Below are positions 26,719 through 35,706 of a stretch of 56,972 nt of DNA, in pieces. Source of the stretch: an uncultured Oscillospiraceae bacterium (GTDB taxonomy: Bacteria; Bacillota; Clostridia; Oscillospirales; Oscillospiraceae); assembly GCA_944385465.1 (NCBI GenBank), contig CALWXH010000005.1:1-56972 (forward strand), written 5' to 3'. Under the pieces are notes generated by a model. The model was not told the origin of the DNA, did not search any database, and worked only from the letters and a program-made list of their open reading frames with translations. Every line of letters starts with the position of its first letter. The stretch's first letter is position 1. Both the position numbers and the translations under genes were made by a program.

Positions 26719-26747
26719 TTGACTTTTGCGCTTAAAAGCGTTAAACT
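26719..26747 (+). promoter_or_regulatory. Promoter of the aroF-tyrA leader
   Basis: TTGACT (26719-26724), 17-base spacer, TAAACT (26742-26747). Transcription would start near 26754, giving a leader of about 185 bases before aroF. Confidence 0.75.
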
Positions 26748-26772
26748 ACCAGAAACGGAAGGAGGTGCGCGC

Positions 26773-26838
26773 ATGGCACAGGTCCGGTTCGGGTATGCAT
26801 ACGGGTATTACCGCTATTGCGATAGCGGCCCTTTGTGA
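26773..26838 (+). CDS. Tyrosine-rich leader peptide (attenuator peptide)
   Basis: 21 codons, ATG 26773 to TGA 26836-26838, preceded by AAGGAGGTG at ideal spacing. The peptide reads MAQVRFGYAYGYYRYCDSGPL: five Tyr and one Phe within ten residues. The Tyr codons begin at 26794, 26800, 26806, 26809 and 26815. A run of codons for the end product, a good ribosome site and a following terminator upstream of aroF and tyrA are the defining parts of ribosome-mediated attenuation. Stalling at Tyr codons when charged tRNA-Tyr is scarce should raise aroF-tyrA transcription. This is inferred from sequence only. Confidence 0.85.
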   Translation: MAQVRFGYAYGYYRYCDSGPL

Positions 26839-26911
26839 TGCCCTGAAACGGTTTGCCATGAGACGCGCGGGATGTGTGCGGCTGCCATTTGGGGCGGCCG
26901 CCTTTTGTTTT
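26811..26911 (+). promoter_or_regulatory. Transcription attenuator of aroF-tyrA
   Basis: Hairpin 1 (CCGCTAT/ATAGCGG, 26811-26828) overlaps the last Tyr codon. The terminator stem is 26878-26886 with 26893-26901 (one G-U pair), followed by CTTTTGTTTT to 26911. A competing helix is possible between GCGGCC (26825-26830) and GGCTGC (26880-26885). A ribosome stalled on the Tyr codons would break hairpin 1 and free 26825-26830 to pair with the terminator arm, allowing read-through; a ribosome reaching the stop at 26838 would cover 26825-26830 and let the terminator form. Confidence 0.7.
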
Positions 26912-26939
26912 GCGGAAAAATCCAAGGGAGGACAGCAAG

Positions 26940-27956
26940 ATGGTCGTAGTGATGAAGCAGGGGTTTTCCCAGGCGCAGATGGACGAGGTAAAGCGGGCCA
27001 TGGAGGCCGGCGGCGTGCGAGTGATGGTGTCCCGGGGGGCCCACACCACCATCCTGGGGGCCGAGGGAGATACCGGCGGGCTGGATCAGGAGCAGCTGGG
27101 GCAGCTGCCCGGCGTGGAGCGTGTGATGCGGGTGAGCGAGCCCTACAAGAAGGCCAACCGGAAGTTCCACCCGGACGACTCGGTGATCCACCTGGGCGGC
27201 GGCGTACAGGTGGGGGGACGGAAGCTGGCGGTGATCGCCGGCCCCTGCTCGGTGGAGAGCCGGGAGCAGATAATCGGCGTGGCCGGGGCCGTCCAGACCG
27301 CCGGAGCGGCGGCCCTGCGGGGGGGCGCCTACAAGCCCCGTACCTCCCCCTACGCCTTCCAGGGCAAGGGAGAGGAGGGTATCCGGCTGCTCCGGGAGGC
27401 CCGGCAGGCCACCGGCCTGCCCATCGTCACCGAGCTGATGAGCTCCGACCAGCTGCCCCTGTTTGAAGAGGGGGTGGACGTGATCCAGATCGGTGCCCGG
27501 AACATGCAGAACTTTGACCTGCTGAAAAAGGTGGGGCGCACCCGCAAGCCCATCCTCCTCAAGCGGGGGCTGTCGGCCACCATCGAGGAGTGGCTGATGA
27601 GCGCGGAGTACGTCATGAGCGAGGGCAACCCCAACGTCATCCTGTGCGAGCGGGGCATCCGCACCTTTGAGACCTACACCCGCAACACCCTGGACCTGTC
27701 GGCGGTGCTGGCGGTCAAGCAGCTCAGCCATCTGCCGGTGGTGGTGGACCCCTCCCACGCCTGCGGCCGGGCCTGGATGGTGGAGGGGATGGCGGTGGCG
27801 GCGGTGGCCGCCGGGGCGGACGGGCTGCTCATCGAGGTGCACAACGATCCCCCCAACGCCCTGTGCGACGGGCAGCAGTCCCTGACGCCGGAACAGTTTG
27901 CCGCCCTGATGGACAAGGTGCGTGCCGTGGCCCACTGCGTGGGCCGGGAGGTGTGA
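26940..27956 (+). CDS. aroF: 3-deoxy-7-phosphoheptulonate (DAHP) synthase, AroF/type I-beta
   Basis: 338 residues. First step of the shikimate pathway, condensing phosphoenolpyruvate and erythrose-4-phosphate. An N-terminal ferredoxin-like regulatory domain (about 1-70, MVVVMKQGFSQAQMDEVKRAM..) precedes the barrel. Visible active-site motifs: AGPCSVES (about 97-104), GGAYKPRTSPYAFQG, ILLKRGLSATIEEWL, ERGIRTFE and DPSHACGR. The ATG at 26940 follows GGGAGGACAG. It is first in an operon with tyrA behind a Tyr-codon attenuator, so this isozyme is probably the tyrosine-responsive one. Confidence 0.95.
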   Translation: MVVVMKQGFSQAQMDEVKRAMEAGGVRVMVSRGAHTTILGAEGDTGGLDQEQLGQLPGVERVMRVSEPYKKANRKFHPDDSVIHLGGGVQVGGRKLAVIAGPCSVESREQIIGVAGAVQTAGAAALRGGAYKPRTSPYAFQGKGEEGIRLLREARQATGLPIVTELMSSDQLPLFEEGVDVIQIGARNMQNFDLLKKVGRTRKPILLKRGLSATIEEWLMSAEYVMSEGNPNVILCERGIRTFETYTRNTLDLSAVLAVKQLSHLPVVVDPSHACGRAWMVEGMAVAAVAAGADGLLIEVHNDPPNALCDGQQSLTPEQFAALMDKVRAVAHCVGREV

Positions 27957-27959
27957 GAG

Positions 27960-28841
27960 ATGGACAGACAGAGACAGATTCTGGTGGTGGGCCTGGGCCT
28001 CATCGGCGGCTCCCTGGCCCTGGCATTGCAGGGCTTTGAGGACTACCTGGTGGTGGGGGGTGTGCGATCCCGGAGCACCTACCAAAAGGCGGTGGAGCGC
28101 CGGGTGGCCCAGAAGGTCACCTTCCACCCGGAGGAGGAGCTGGAAAAGTCGGACGTGGTCATCCTGTGCCAGGACCCCCAGGGCATCATGGACTTCCTCC
28201 GGGACCACCGGGAGAAGTTCCGGCCGGGCAGCCTGGTGCTGGATGTGTGCGGCATCAAGACCGCCATCATGGAGGCGGCCGACTGCCTGCCCGAGGGGGT
28301 GGACTTCATCGGCTGCCACCCCATGGCGGGCAAGGAGGTGTCCGGCATTGACCACGCCGAGGCCACCCTCTTCCGCAACACCCACTTCATCATCACCCCC
28401 CGGGCGGACAGCACGCCGGAACACCTGGAACTGCTCTCCCGCATGGCGGCCCACTGCCAGTTCCGGGACGTGGTGAGCACTACCTGCGCCCGCCACGACG
28501 GGATGATCGCCTACACCAGCCAGCTCATGCACGTCATCGCCCTGTCGGTGTGCGACAGCGAGCAGCTGTTCACCTGCATGGGCTTTGAGGGGGGCTCCTT
28601 CCGGGACTGCACCCGGGTGGCCGCCCTGGACGTGCCGCTGTGGACCCAGCTGTTCACCCTCAACGCCCCCGCCCTCACCCGGGTGGTGGAGGAGCTGGAG
28701 GGCCGGCTGCGCGCCTACCGCCAGGCCATCGCCGCCGGCGACCGGGAGGCGCTGGCGGCCATGCTGGAGCACGCCGCCGGCCGCAAGAAGCAGCGCAACT
28801 TCGAGCAGGCCCGGGGGGACGACGTTCACGTCGGGTTTTGA
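27960..28841 (+). CDS. tyrA: Prephenate dehydrogenase
   Basis: 293 residues. Oxidative decarboxylation of prephenate to 4-hydroxyphenylpyruvate on the tyrosine branch. N-terminal NAD-binding Rossmann motif VVGLGLIGGSLALAL (about 9-23), then VLDVCGIKTAIMEAA and FIGCHPMAGKEVSGIDHAEATLF with the catalytic His (about 118). The all-helical C-terminal domain follows; no ACT domain and no chorismate mutase fusion is seen. It starts three bases after aroF. The absence of a feedback domain here fits control by attenuation upstream. Confidence 0.95.
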   Translation: MDRQRQILVVGLGLIGGSLALALQGFEDYLVVGGVRSRSTYQKAVERRVAQKVTFHPEEELEKSDVVILCQDPQGIMDFLRDHREKFRPGSLVLDVCGIKTAIMEAADCLPEGVDFIGCHPMAGKEVSGIDHAEATLFRNTHFIITPRADSTPEHLELLSRMAAHCQFRDVVSTTCARHDGMIAYTSQLMHVIALSVCDSEQLFTCMGFEGGSFRDCTRVAALDVPLWTQLFTLNAPALTRVVEELEGRLRAYRQAIAAGDREALAAMLEHAAGRKKQRNFEQARGDDVHVGF

Positions 28842-31779: not shown

Positions 31780-32620
31780 GCGCCCCCTCGCCTTTTGCCG
31801 GAAAGTGCCGGCAGGCACTATGGGTTGCCGGTTCCCGCACCGGCGGGCGGTAACGCACCACGGATGGTGCGTCTCAGGTTTCGCCCAGGGCGAGTTCCTT
31901 TTGGCACGGGCCAAAAGGAACCAAAAGCCCGCTCTTTTTCAGATAGGAGCGATGAGATAGGAGAGATTCCGTCTGGATTCCTCTGCCTCTTTGCCGGAGG
32001 GTTCCGGCAAGCTCTCAAGATTGCCGGTTCCCGCACCGGCGGGCGGGGTACTTTCTCTTGCACCAGAGAAAGTACCCAAAGAGCGTGTCCAGGGGGAGGA
32101 CCCCCTGGATACCCCCCGCTCAGTTGGGGTGCGCTCCTCTCTTTCCGGCGTCCGTCATCGACACGTATCCCACGCACGGCGGCCTCCGGCCTTTTGCCGA
32201 CTTGACTTGCCGCGCTTCGGCGCCGCCTATGGGCGCCTGGTGCGGGCGAACAGACTGGGGGGGGCTTGCGCTCTAACGGCGCACACACCGAAGTGCCCTG
32301 CCAGTTTAGGCGCCTATCCTGGGCCGCAGGCACCAAAGCATAAGGTCGCACAAGGCCGTAGGCCGCCGGAGGAACCGGCGCAACCGCGGGTTTCGGATGC
32401 CGGAAAGAGAAGCAGGGAGGTCTGCTGAACAGGGGGGGATACCCAAGGGGGGTACGCCCCCCTTCGGGCGCGCTTTTGGTGACTTTTCTCGCGTAAGAAA
32501 AGTCACCCCAGCGGAGCGTCGCTCCCGCCGCCCGCAGGCGGCAAAATTCTCTTTGCCTGCTTTCTGCGCGGGCAGAAAGAAACTCGCCCTGGGGGCGAAC
32601 CCCCAAAATCTATGGCTCAG
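31780..32620 (-). repeat. Palindrome-bounded intergenic repeat, copy R2 (chimeric)
   Basis: About 840 bases between yabR and the amidohydrolase. It has three boundary palindromes: AGTTCCTTTTGGC..GCCAAAAGGAACC (31893-31922), GGTACTTTCTC..GAGAAAGTACC (32047-32076) and GGTGACTTTTC..GAAAAGTCACC (32478-32507). The core (about 32180-32400) is in the opposite orientation to R1 and R3, but the CTCAGTTG..CTTTCCGGCGTCC head module occurs on the left in forward orientation and again, as a degraded reverse copy, on the right. It therefore seems to be two head halves joined around one core. No conserved reading frame. Confidence 0.75.
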
Positions 32621-34864: not shown

Positions 34865-35706
34865 TGCCTCTGGTGCGTCCCTTTTGCCGGAAAGTTCCGG
34901 CAGGCCCTTGGGGTTTTGCCGGTTCCCGCACCGGCGGGCGGGGTACTTTCTCTTGCGCAAGAGAAAGTACCCAAAGAGTGCGCATAGGGGGCGGCCCCCC
35001 TATGCACCCCCCGCTCAGTTGGGGTGCGCCCTTCTCTTTCCGGCGTCCTGAACCCGCGGCTGCGCCGGTTCCCCCGACGGCCTCCGGCCTCCTGCATCCG
35101 TATGCTTTGGTGCCTGCGGCCCAGGATAGGCGCCTAAACTGGCAGGGCACTTCGGTGTGTGCGCCGTTAGAGGCACAGACCCGCAGGCTTGAACACCGAG
35201 ATTAGGCGCCCATAGGCGGCGCAGAAGTGGGGCAAGTTTGGTGGCACCAGGGCGGAGCCCGCCGAGGGGTGCGCAGAGCGTCGATACTGTGCGCCGGGCG
35301 TTAGAGGGACGCACCGATTCTGCTCCCCCGTAAACCGGGGGTTCTTAGGGGGGCAAATCCTGGAGGACGCCCTTTGTCCGATGGATTTGTCCCCCTATGC
35401 GCGTCTTTGCCTACTTTCTGCGCGCGCAGAAAGTAGGTCGCCCTTCCGGGCGAAACCTCGTCGTCGCAAAGTCCGCTTAGCTTCGTTTCCGCCCAAGGAC
35501 GGCGAAAACTTCGCCCGCTCCCTTGCTCCTCCTCTCCCCGCGTCGCCACAAGCTCCATATCCTTTGCTTCCGCCTCTGGCGAAAGCTCATCCATTTCGCT
35601 GCGGCTCCTTTCCCCACAAAAGCCCTGCTTTTGTGGGGGCCCCAGCTATCCGCTTCGCTGGGTTTCGGCGGGGGCCCCAGATGCCCGCCGGTGCGGGAAC
35701 CGGCAA
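34865..35706 (+). repeat. Palindrome-bounded intergenic repeat, copy R3
   Basis: Occupies most of the gap between the fumarase-alpha gene and hpf. Bounded on the left by a perfect 30-base palindrome (GGTACTTTCTCTTGC and its complement, 34942-34971) and on the right by CCTACTTTCTGCG..CGCAGAAAGTAGG (35410-35437). Order of modules is as in R1: TTTGCCGGAAAG, ATAGGGGGCGGCCCCCCTAT hairpin, CTCAGTTGGGG, CTTTCCGGCGTCC, GACGGCCTCCGGCC, AGGCGCCTA, CCCGCAGGCTTGAACACC, CCCCCGTAAACCGGGGG. The 270-base tail (35438-35706) is nearly identical to the R1 tail. Best-preserved copy in the window. Confidence 0.85.

Follow-up and report, generated by a model that had tools for sequence, protein, structure and literature searches.

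The leader of the aroF1–tyrA operon in an uncultured Oscillospiraceae bacterium probably acts as a transcription attenuator of the ribosome-mediated kind that senses charged tRNA-Tyr, a reading to which we assign a probability of about 85%. A Tyr-codon attenuator on aroF–tyrA had been proposed in an initial annotation, and the proposal is now well supported by comparison, as relatives share the leader peptide, its Tyr codons and its stems. The element lies on the plus strand at 26719–26939 of the analyzed stretch of DNA (56,972 nt, hereafter the window) and comprises a promoter, a ribosome site, a leader ORF, a hairpin and a terminator, followed by aroF–tyrA. Its features are as follows.

26719–26747, plus strand: promoter, with TTGACT at 26719–26724, a spacer of 17 nt and TAAACT at 26742–26747
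26757–26765, plus strand: Shine-Dalgarno sequence of the leader ORF, GGAAGGAGG, 7 nt before the ATG
26773–26838, plus strand: leader peptide ORF, ATG at 26773, TGA at 26836–26838, 21 sense codons, MAQVRFGYAYGYYRYCDSGPL
26791–26843, plus strand: long leader hairpin, in which the middle helix GGGTAT/ATGCCC (GGGTATGGC/GTCATGCCC) encloses the inner hairpin; from predicted folds and covariation
26811–26828, plus strand: inner hairpin over the last Tyr codon, CCGCTAT-TGCG-ATAGCGG; from covariation
26825–26847, plus strand: leader 3' strand, predicted antiterminator half (26825–26830 plus 26840–26847); from the stalled-ribosome fold
26878–26901, plus strand: intrinsic terminator stem-loop; from covariation and the consensus scan
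26903–26911, plus strand: terminator T-run, TTTTGTTTT
26940–27956, plus strand: aroF1, type I-beta DAHP synthase; NF006421 at 4.3e-150, above its cut-off
27960–28841, plus strand: tyrA, prephenate dehydrogenase; Pfam PDH_N and PDH_C above their cut-offs

The leader ORF contains five Tyr codons, at 26794, 26800, 26806, 26809 and 26815, and a Phe codon at 26788, so that direct reading agrees with the 21-codon leader of five Tyr and one Phe codon described initially. The other parts of that description also hold: the strong ribosome site is GGAAGGAGG at 26757–26765, the hairpin overlapping the last Tyr codon is present at 26811–26828 and covaries, the terminator with its T-run is present at 26878–26911 with a covarying stem, and aroF and tyrA lie directly downstream, in agreement with the NF006421 and Pfam matches. 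For tyrA, all 17 NCBIfam matches fell below their own cut-offs. A consensus scan recovered both the leader promoter (1 found against 0.4 in shuffles) and the leader terminator (3 terminator-like elements found against 0.5), and the leader RNA folded with a z-score of −2.65, equalled by 2 of 200 shuffles. Among 747 small ORFs of 15–30 codons on both strands of the whole window, the leader ORF is the single one with at least four Tyr codons. This count, together with the conservation and the stem covariation described below, rules out a chance ORF. Elsewhere in the window we noted a malK-I RNA motif (Rfam RF03069, 336–524, minus strand, 123.9 bits), a long direct repeat (32021–32153 and 34916–35048, 133 nt, 89%) and a long inverted repeat (32271–32436 and 35007–35172, 166 nt, 86%).

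A search of 60 genomes yielded 27 loci with a close aroF1 ortholog (L001–L027, at least 72% identity). A Tyr-containing leader ORF lies upstream of aroF1 in 26 of them, the 27th being cut by a contig end, and 23 of these 26 leaders hold at least four Tyr codons, with two or three in L003, L004 and L007. The linkage to tyrA is equally constant: it was found 3' of aroF1 on the same contig and strand at 26 of the 27 loci with a whole or nearly whole aroF1, at a distance below 200 bp in 24 loci and of about 0.8 kb in two, the locus of G025 being broken by a contig end. A purine run resembling the Shine-Dalgarno sequence precedes most of 35 leader ORFs as judged by eye. Fourteen further named loci with at least 70% identity (L031–L044) comprised 12 with a Tyr leader, three of which repeat L003, L007 and L024; in the leader scan no Tyr leader was seen in the remaining L039 and L042, whose aroF is 71 and 70% identical. 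Among the carriers are Flavonifractor sp. An306 and AGMB03687, Candidatus Intestinimonas stercorigallinarum and Papillibacter cinnamivorans, and other Oscillospiraceae outside the genus of the window's organism also carry the leader. The alignment of 34 leaders used below (A1) omits L008 (contig end), L027 (Ns), L032, L034 and L035 (located on the contigs of L003, L024 and L007) as well as L039 and L042 (no Tyr leader seen), and thus consists of leader-bearing loci only.

A covariance model built from A1 (R1) gave a single match in each of 32 genomes among the 42 of the genus. Nine of the ten misses had no aroF1 match in the search, two of these being incomplete assemblies (G005, G020), and the tenth, G004, retains only the last 36 codons of aroF1, at a contig end. 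Across the order, under stricter filters, 9 of 295 genomes were matched, eight of them from the same family; we discounted the ninth, G261, as a weak match (E 8e-4) without an ORF of four Tyr codons. A second copy of the Tyr leader was not found with R1 in the window's genome (G000), where the next matches had E-values above 1.

The comparative alignment suggested at the outset as a check shows that relatives keep the peptide, the Tyr codons and covarying stems. For the inner hairpin and the terminator taken together, 96.5% of 544 cells of A1 are paired and both sides changed in 7 of 16 pairs (21 cells), which none of 500 shuffles equalled; the terminator stem contributes both-sided changes in five of its nine pairs. 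Slid partners of the same arms were paired in 33–69% of cells, and a slide by −3 also yielded 7 both-sided pairs, but with 7 cells compared to 21. A long leader hairpin is predicted for the ORF in most of the 34 sequences, and its middle helix, not part of the initial description, was assessed on a subset of 24 A1 rows (A2), from which L001–L004, L031 (two-codon insertion), L024, L026, L037, L040 and L041 were dropped, so that the row of the window itself, with two extra codons within the helix, is not part of A2. In A2 the middle helix is 93.5% paired, with both-sided change in three of nine pairs, and its number of pair types was reached by 69 of 500 shuffles. Five rows show a both-sided change in one of its pairs; four of them are close relatives in which TAT became TAC together with TCA becoming TCG, synonymous in either strand of the helix. 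Judged from the alignments, the inner hairpin, this second helix and the terminator thus covary. The middle helix would account for the conservation of the Gly codons and of the peptide's SCP end; since the stems overlap the ORF, conservation of the peptide is in part confounded with that of the RNA.

A further reading is a peptide-sequence-dependent arrest in which the nascent chain would sense tyrosine or another ligand, rather than the ribosome responding to a shortage of charged tRNA. Residues other than Tyr are indeed conserved (YGYGYYRYYDSG.LSCP in many rows), but they fall mostly within helix arms where changes are compensated, the number of Tyr codons ranges from 2 to 7, and the diverged L026, L037 and L041 retain Tyr and little else. 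We consider such an arrest very improbable. In L003 and L004 (G003, G035), 2–3 Tyr codons remain while inner hairpin and terminator are kept, which may reflect decay or a change of signal.

For the tRNA-reading attenuator we infer leader translation, ribosome stalling, an antiterminator and a response to tyrosine, arranged in the following way. With sufficient tyrosine, the ribosome would reach the leader stop codon and the terminator (26878–26911) would form before aroF–tyrA. When charged tRNA-Tyr is short, the ribosome would stall in the Tyr stretch (codons 26794–26811) and prevent the 5' strand of the hairpin from pairing, upon which the freed 3' strand could form an antiterminator and transcription would continue. 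The likeliest partner of 26825–26830 and 26840–26847 would be the terminator loop and 3' arm at 26888–26901, a step of which we are less sure than of the others.

We modeled the stall by masking the RNA up to 15 nt past the codon start and folding the remainder. In the model of the window, a switch by ribosome position does occur: the terminator was lost only with the ribosome at offsets 18–36, which span four of the five Tyr codons along with the intervening codons, and was still formed with the ribosome on the fifth Tyr codon or, at full level, on the stop codon. Over the 34 loci, Tyr codons were over-represented at switching positions (28 of 66 compared to 143 of 722, codons not being independent of each other). 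At equilibrium a Tyr stall halved the terminator in 12 of 34 sequences only, and the near relatives L003 and L004, with 2 and 3 Tyr codons, did not switch in the model.

In the stalled fold, the structure replacing the terminator pairs 26825–26830 and 26840–26847 with the loop and 3' arm of the terminator at 26888–26901 (14 pairs). The initial annotation had placed a six-base antiterminator between 26825–26830 and 26880–26885, that is, the same attenuator with a classical 2:3 pairing to the 5' arm. This pairing can form, with one G–U pair, and the two alternatives have a GC-rich GCGGCC core in common. By duplex energy, arm 4 is favored: its duplex was better than with dinucleotide-shuffled arm 2 by 3.4 kcal/mol on average and reached p 0.05 in 9 of 34 sequences, compared to a mean difference of −0.05 kcal/mol, i.e. 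about the shuffled level, and 3 of 34 sequences for the 2:3 duplex; for the window sequence by itself the p-values were 0.06 for arm 4 and 0.25 for arm 3. Both column tests came out better for the 2:3 pairing, if marginally so, with 82.8% of cells paired, where column shuffles give 81.7% and 22 of 500 reach the observed value, and a covariation score reached by 42 of 500, compared to the arm-4 core with 87.7% of A1 cells paired, a value reached by 412 of 500 shuffles, and a score reached by 400 of 500. As partner of the leader 3' strand, arm 4 is thus favored by energy and arm 3 slightly by the column test, and neither pairing covaries clearly; an attenuator with the classical 2:3 antiterminator strikes us as rather doubtful.

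Control might also act at the promoter. A dyad, CTTT (26723–26726)–N8–AAAG (26735–26738), runs from the −35 box into the spacer. We compared 41 promoters, the 34 of the leaders and 7 from tyrA-only loci: AAAG stands at a fixed spacer position and TT follows the −35 box in all 41, and the complete CTTT–N8–AAAG is present in 40, the remaining one having TTTT. The conservation of the −35 part is in part due to selection, as the search pattern required TTGA(C/T)T. In the window's genome the dyad pattern is unique even with 2 mismatches allowed (control 0), and at up to 1 mismatch it occurs once each in 33 of 42 genus genomes and in none of the other nine. No leader was seen between promoter and tyrA in any of the seven tyrA-only loci, where aromatic ORFs were rejected as leaders since they begin upstream of the promoter. 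The dyad is possibly an operator. That a DNA-binding regulator at this site exerts the main control, with the leader being secondary or additive, would fit the AAAG invariant even at the seven leaderless loci and the single site per genome; it would leave the Tyr codons and the covarying stems unexplained, and it posits a regulator at a dyad whose −35 half coincides with the promoter consensus demanded by the search pattern. Such predominant control at the promoter we regard as unlikely, and we retain the attenuator as the main reading.

To the initial annotation, a Tyr leader peptide on aroF–tyrA appeared unusual for Clostridia, a view that the wider set of aroF relatives contradicts as far as aromatic leaders in general are concerned. 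From the best 80 of 575 relatives, 79 loci were amenable to a test for an aromatic-rich leader, with 100 shuffles per locus, yielding 32 at p 0.01 and 43 at p 0.05. In this same sample of the best 80, 26 of 65 loci outside the aroF group of the window (L031–L044) had such a leader at p 0.01, four of them being aroF2 loci of the window's genus (L069, L073, L083, L106). At all 32 loci with p 0.01, a terminator-like hairpin separates the leader from the gene, a count without shuffle control. Leader-bearing loci include Clostridium, Epulopiscium, Monoglobus and a Synergistaceae bacterium. Their leaders are mostly Phe-rich, and Tyr dominates in L071 (p 0.05), L087 and L095. The aroF leader peptides of L047, L060, L070, L082, L093, L086 and L103 (Clostridium, Epulopiscium and others) resemble FWGFYFSAGYLFCKK, and GCTCATT or CTCATT is common to many aroF leader terminators; these peptides and CTCATT-type terminators possibly represent one old leader family.

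With Rfam at gathering thresholds, the sole match at 20 leader-bearing aroF loci was a T-box lying on the opposite strand in L059. Among 20 aroF loci without a leader a T-box stands directly before aroF in two (L104, 2696–2945; L107, 2615–2877), indicating that the same gene is under T-box control in other lineages. The T-box family RF00230 has no match in the Tyr leader of the window, and we rejected a T-box or other Rfam family as its identity as there was no Rfam match at E up to 1. The window's genome has 13 T-box matches, 6 of them above the cut-off, which we take to precede thrS, valS, glyS, leuA and transporters, among others.

The arrangement recalls the trpL and pheL-type attenuators of E. 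coli, where a short ORF rich in codons for the end product, alternative hairpins and an intrinsic terminator precede a biosynthetic operon. All four traits recur here, the alternative hairpins as a prediction; the differences are the Tyr codons and an antiterminator that may use the terminator loop and 3' arm, not the 5' arm. Passages of PMC11802643 name both E. coli attenuators as ribosome-mediated, as well as TyrR repression in this organism. In Corynebacterium glutamicum, aroR–aroF likewise has a leader peptide 5' of a DAHP synthase gene (passages in PMC4046766 and PMC11802643), but it belongs to a different phylum, its peptide reads Phe-Tyr-Phe and, according to the latter source, the operon answers Phe limitation, not Tyr availability. 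The uORFC-13-1 motif is similar in being a predicted uORF attenuator with terminator before the aroF of Acholeplasma, and differs in a U run encoding Phe and in being reported, in the section of PMC8632094 concerned, only from Acholeplasma and environmental sequences. Gene pair and proposed signal are both the same for a tRNA-Tyr-sensing aroF attenuator entered in a Shewanella table that cites Camakaris 1980 for E. coli aroF–tyrA (PMC2659441). That table groups it with motifs for which no regulatory RNA structure is proposed, the corresponding passage of PMC8632094 gives it as a hypothesis for E. coli, and E. coli differs further in having TyrR repression. Leader-peptide attenuation within Firmicutes is shared with the bacillar His leader of hisS and hisZ (passage in PMC2965389) and the Leu-rich leader peptide of Staphylococcus aureus (PMC5794164), which differ in amino acid and genes. 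For the phenylalanine and tyrosine operons of Actinobacteria, PMC1262725 observed no conserved RNA structure upstream, and it states that tyrosine genes outside this group are controlled by T-boxes. A Tyr leader peptide attenuator in Clostridia was not found in the literature searched, in which subscription journals are thinly covered. The principle of leader-peptide attenuation is classic and its tyrosine version little known, and the present leader would offer a clear case in an Oscillospiraceae genome that also has T-boxes.

The same genome encodes a second DAHP synthase (aroF2, on contig C33), 63% identical to aroF1. Downstream on the same strand lie a small ORF, aroB, aroA, a partly seen chorismate synthase gene, a gamma carbonic anhydrase gene and pheA (chorismate mutase/prephenate dehydratase), with the aroA, aroC and pheA models scoring at or below their cut-offs. 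Its leader (L111, 770–990) encodes a Phe-rich peptide, MDLCCAHNVMFSFGWARFTGFGYFGVEKQRVL, followed by a strong hairpin with a T-run. With this row behind a Phe-rich leader, the control of either isozyme may be matched to the end product that it serves, and the coexistence of Tyr and Phe leaders on two isozyme operons of the same cell offers a natural test of how leader codons are adjusted to the enzyme under their control. A Phe-rich aroF2 leader is present in 17 of 25 two-isozyme genomes examined; no aromatic leader was found at aroF2 in the other eight (G007, G008, G012, G023, G025, G027, G029, G030), and Rfam yielded nothing at E up to 0.1 at the leaderless loci of G007, G012, G025 and G027. 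Five of the loci without an aromatic leader are L114–L118 (G023, G030, G007, G008, G029), and the gene upstream of aroF2 in L118 presumably resembles cytidine deaminase.

Over leader residues 7–25, the 17 two-isozyme genomes average 1.0 Tyr, 4.9 Phe and 1 Trp codon in the aroF2 leader, compared to 3.1 Tyr, 4.0 Phe and 0 Trp in 7 genomes without aroF1. G005 and G020 were set apart from this comparison as incomplete, G020 still being counted as single-isozyme in the tree. In a quick tree, aroF1 was missing from G013 and from a clade with four tested rows that include the incomplete G020; the absence of aroF1 takes two changes on the best tree, and well-supported branches force only one. The shift in Tyr codons therefore reflects one or two events and does not amount to 24 independent observations. 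A broader picture can be put forward tentatively, at somewhat less than even odds: Clostridia would widely run DAHP synthase by aromatic leaders, with two-isozyme lineages splitting control between Tyr (aroF1–tyrA) and Phe-rich (aroF2–aroB–aroA–aroC–pheA) leaders whose codon make-up tracks the amino acid of the isozyme, and the Tyr attenuator would capture the 3' arm of its terminator and act together with the operator-like dyad. A third DAHP synthase was observed in L166 (G036, contig C140); the ORF upstream of it is Tyr/Phe-rich, and a distant match resembling tyrA (31%) lies close by.
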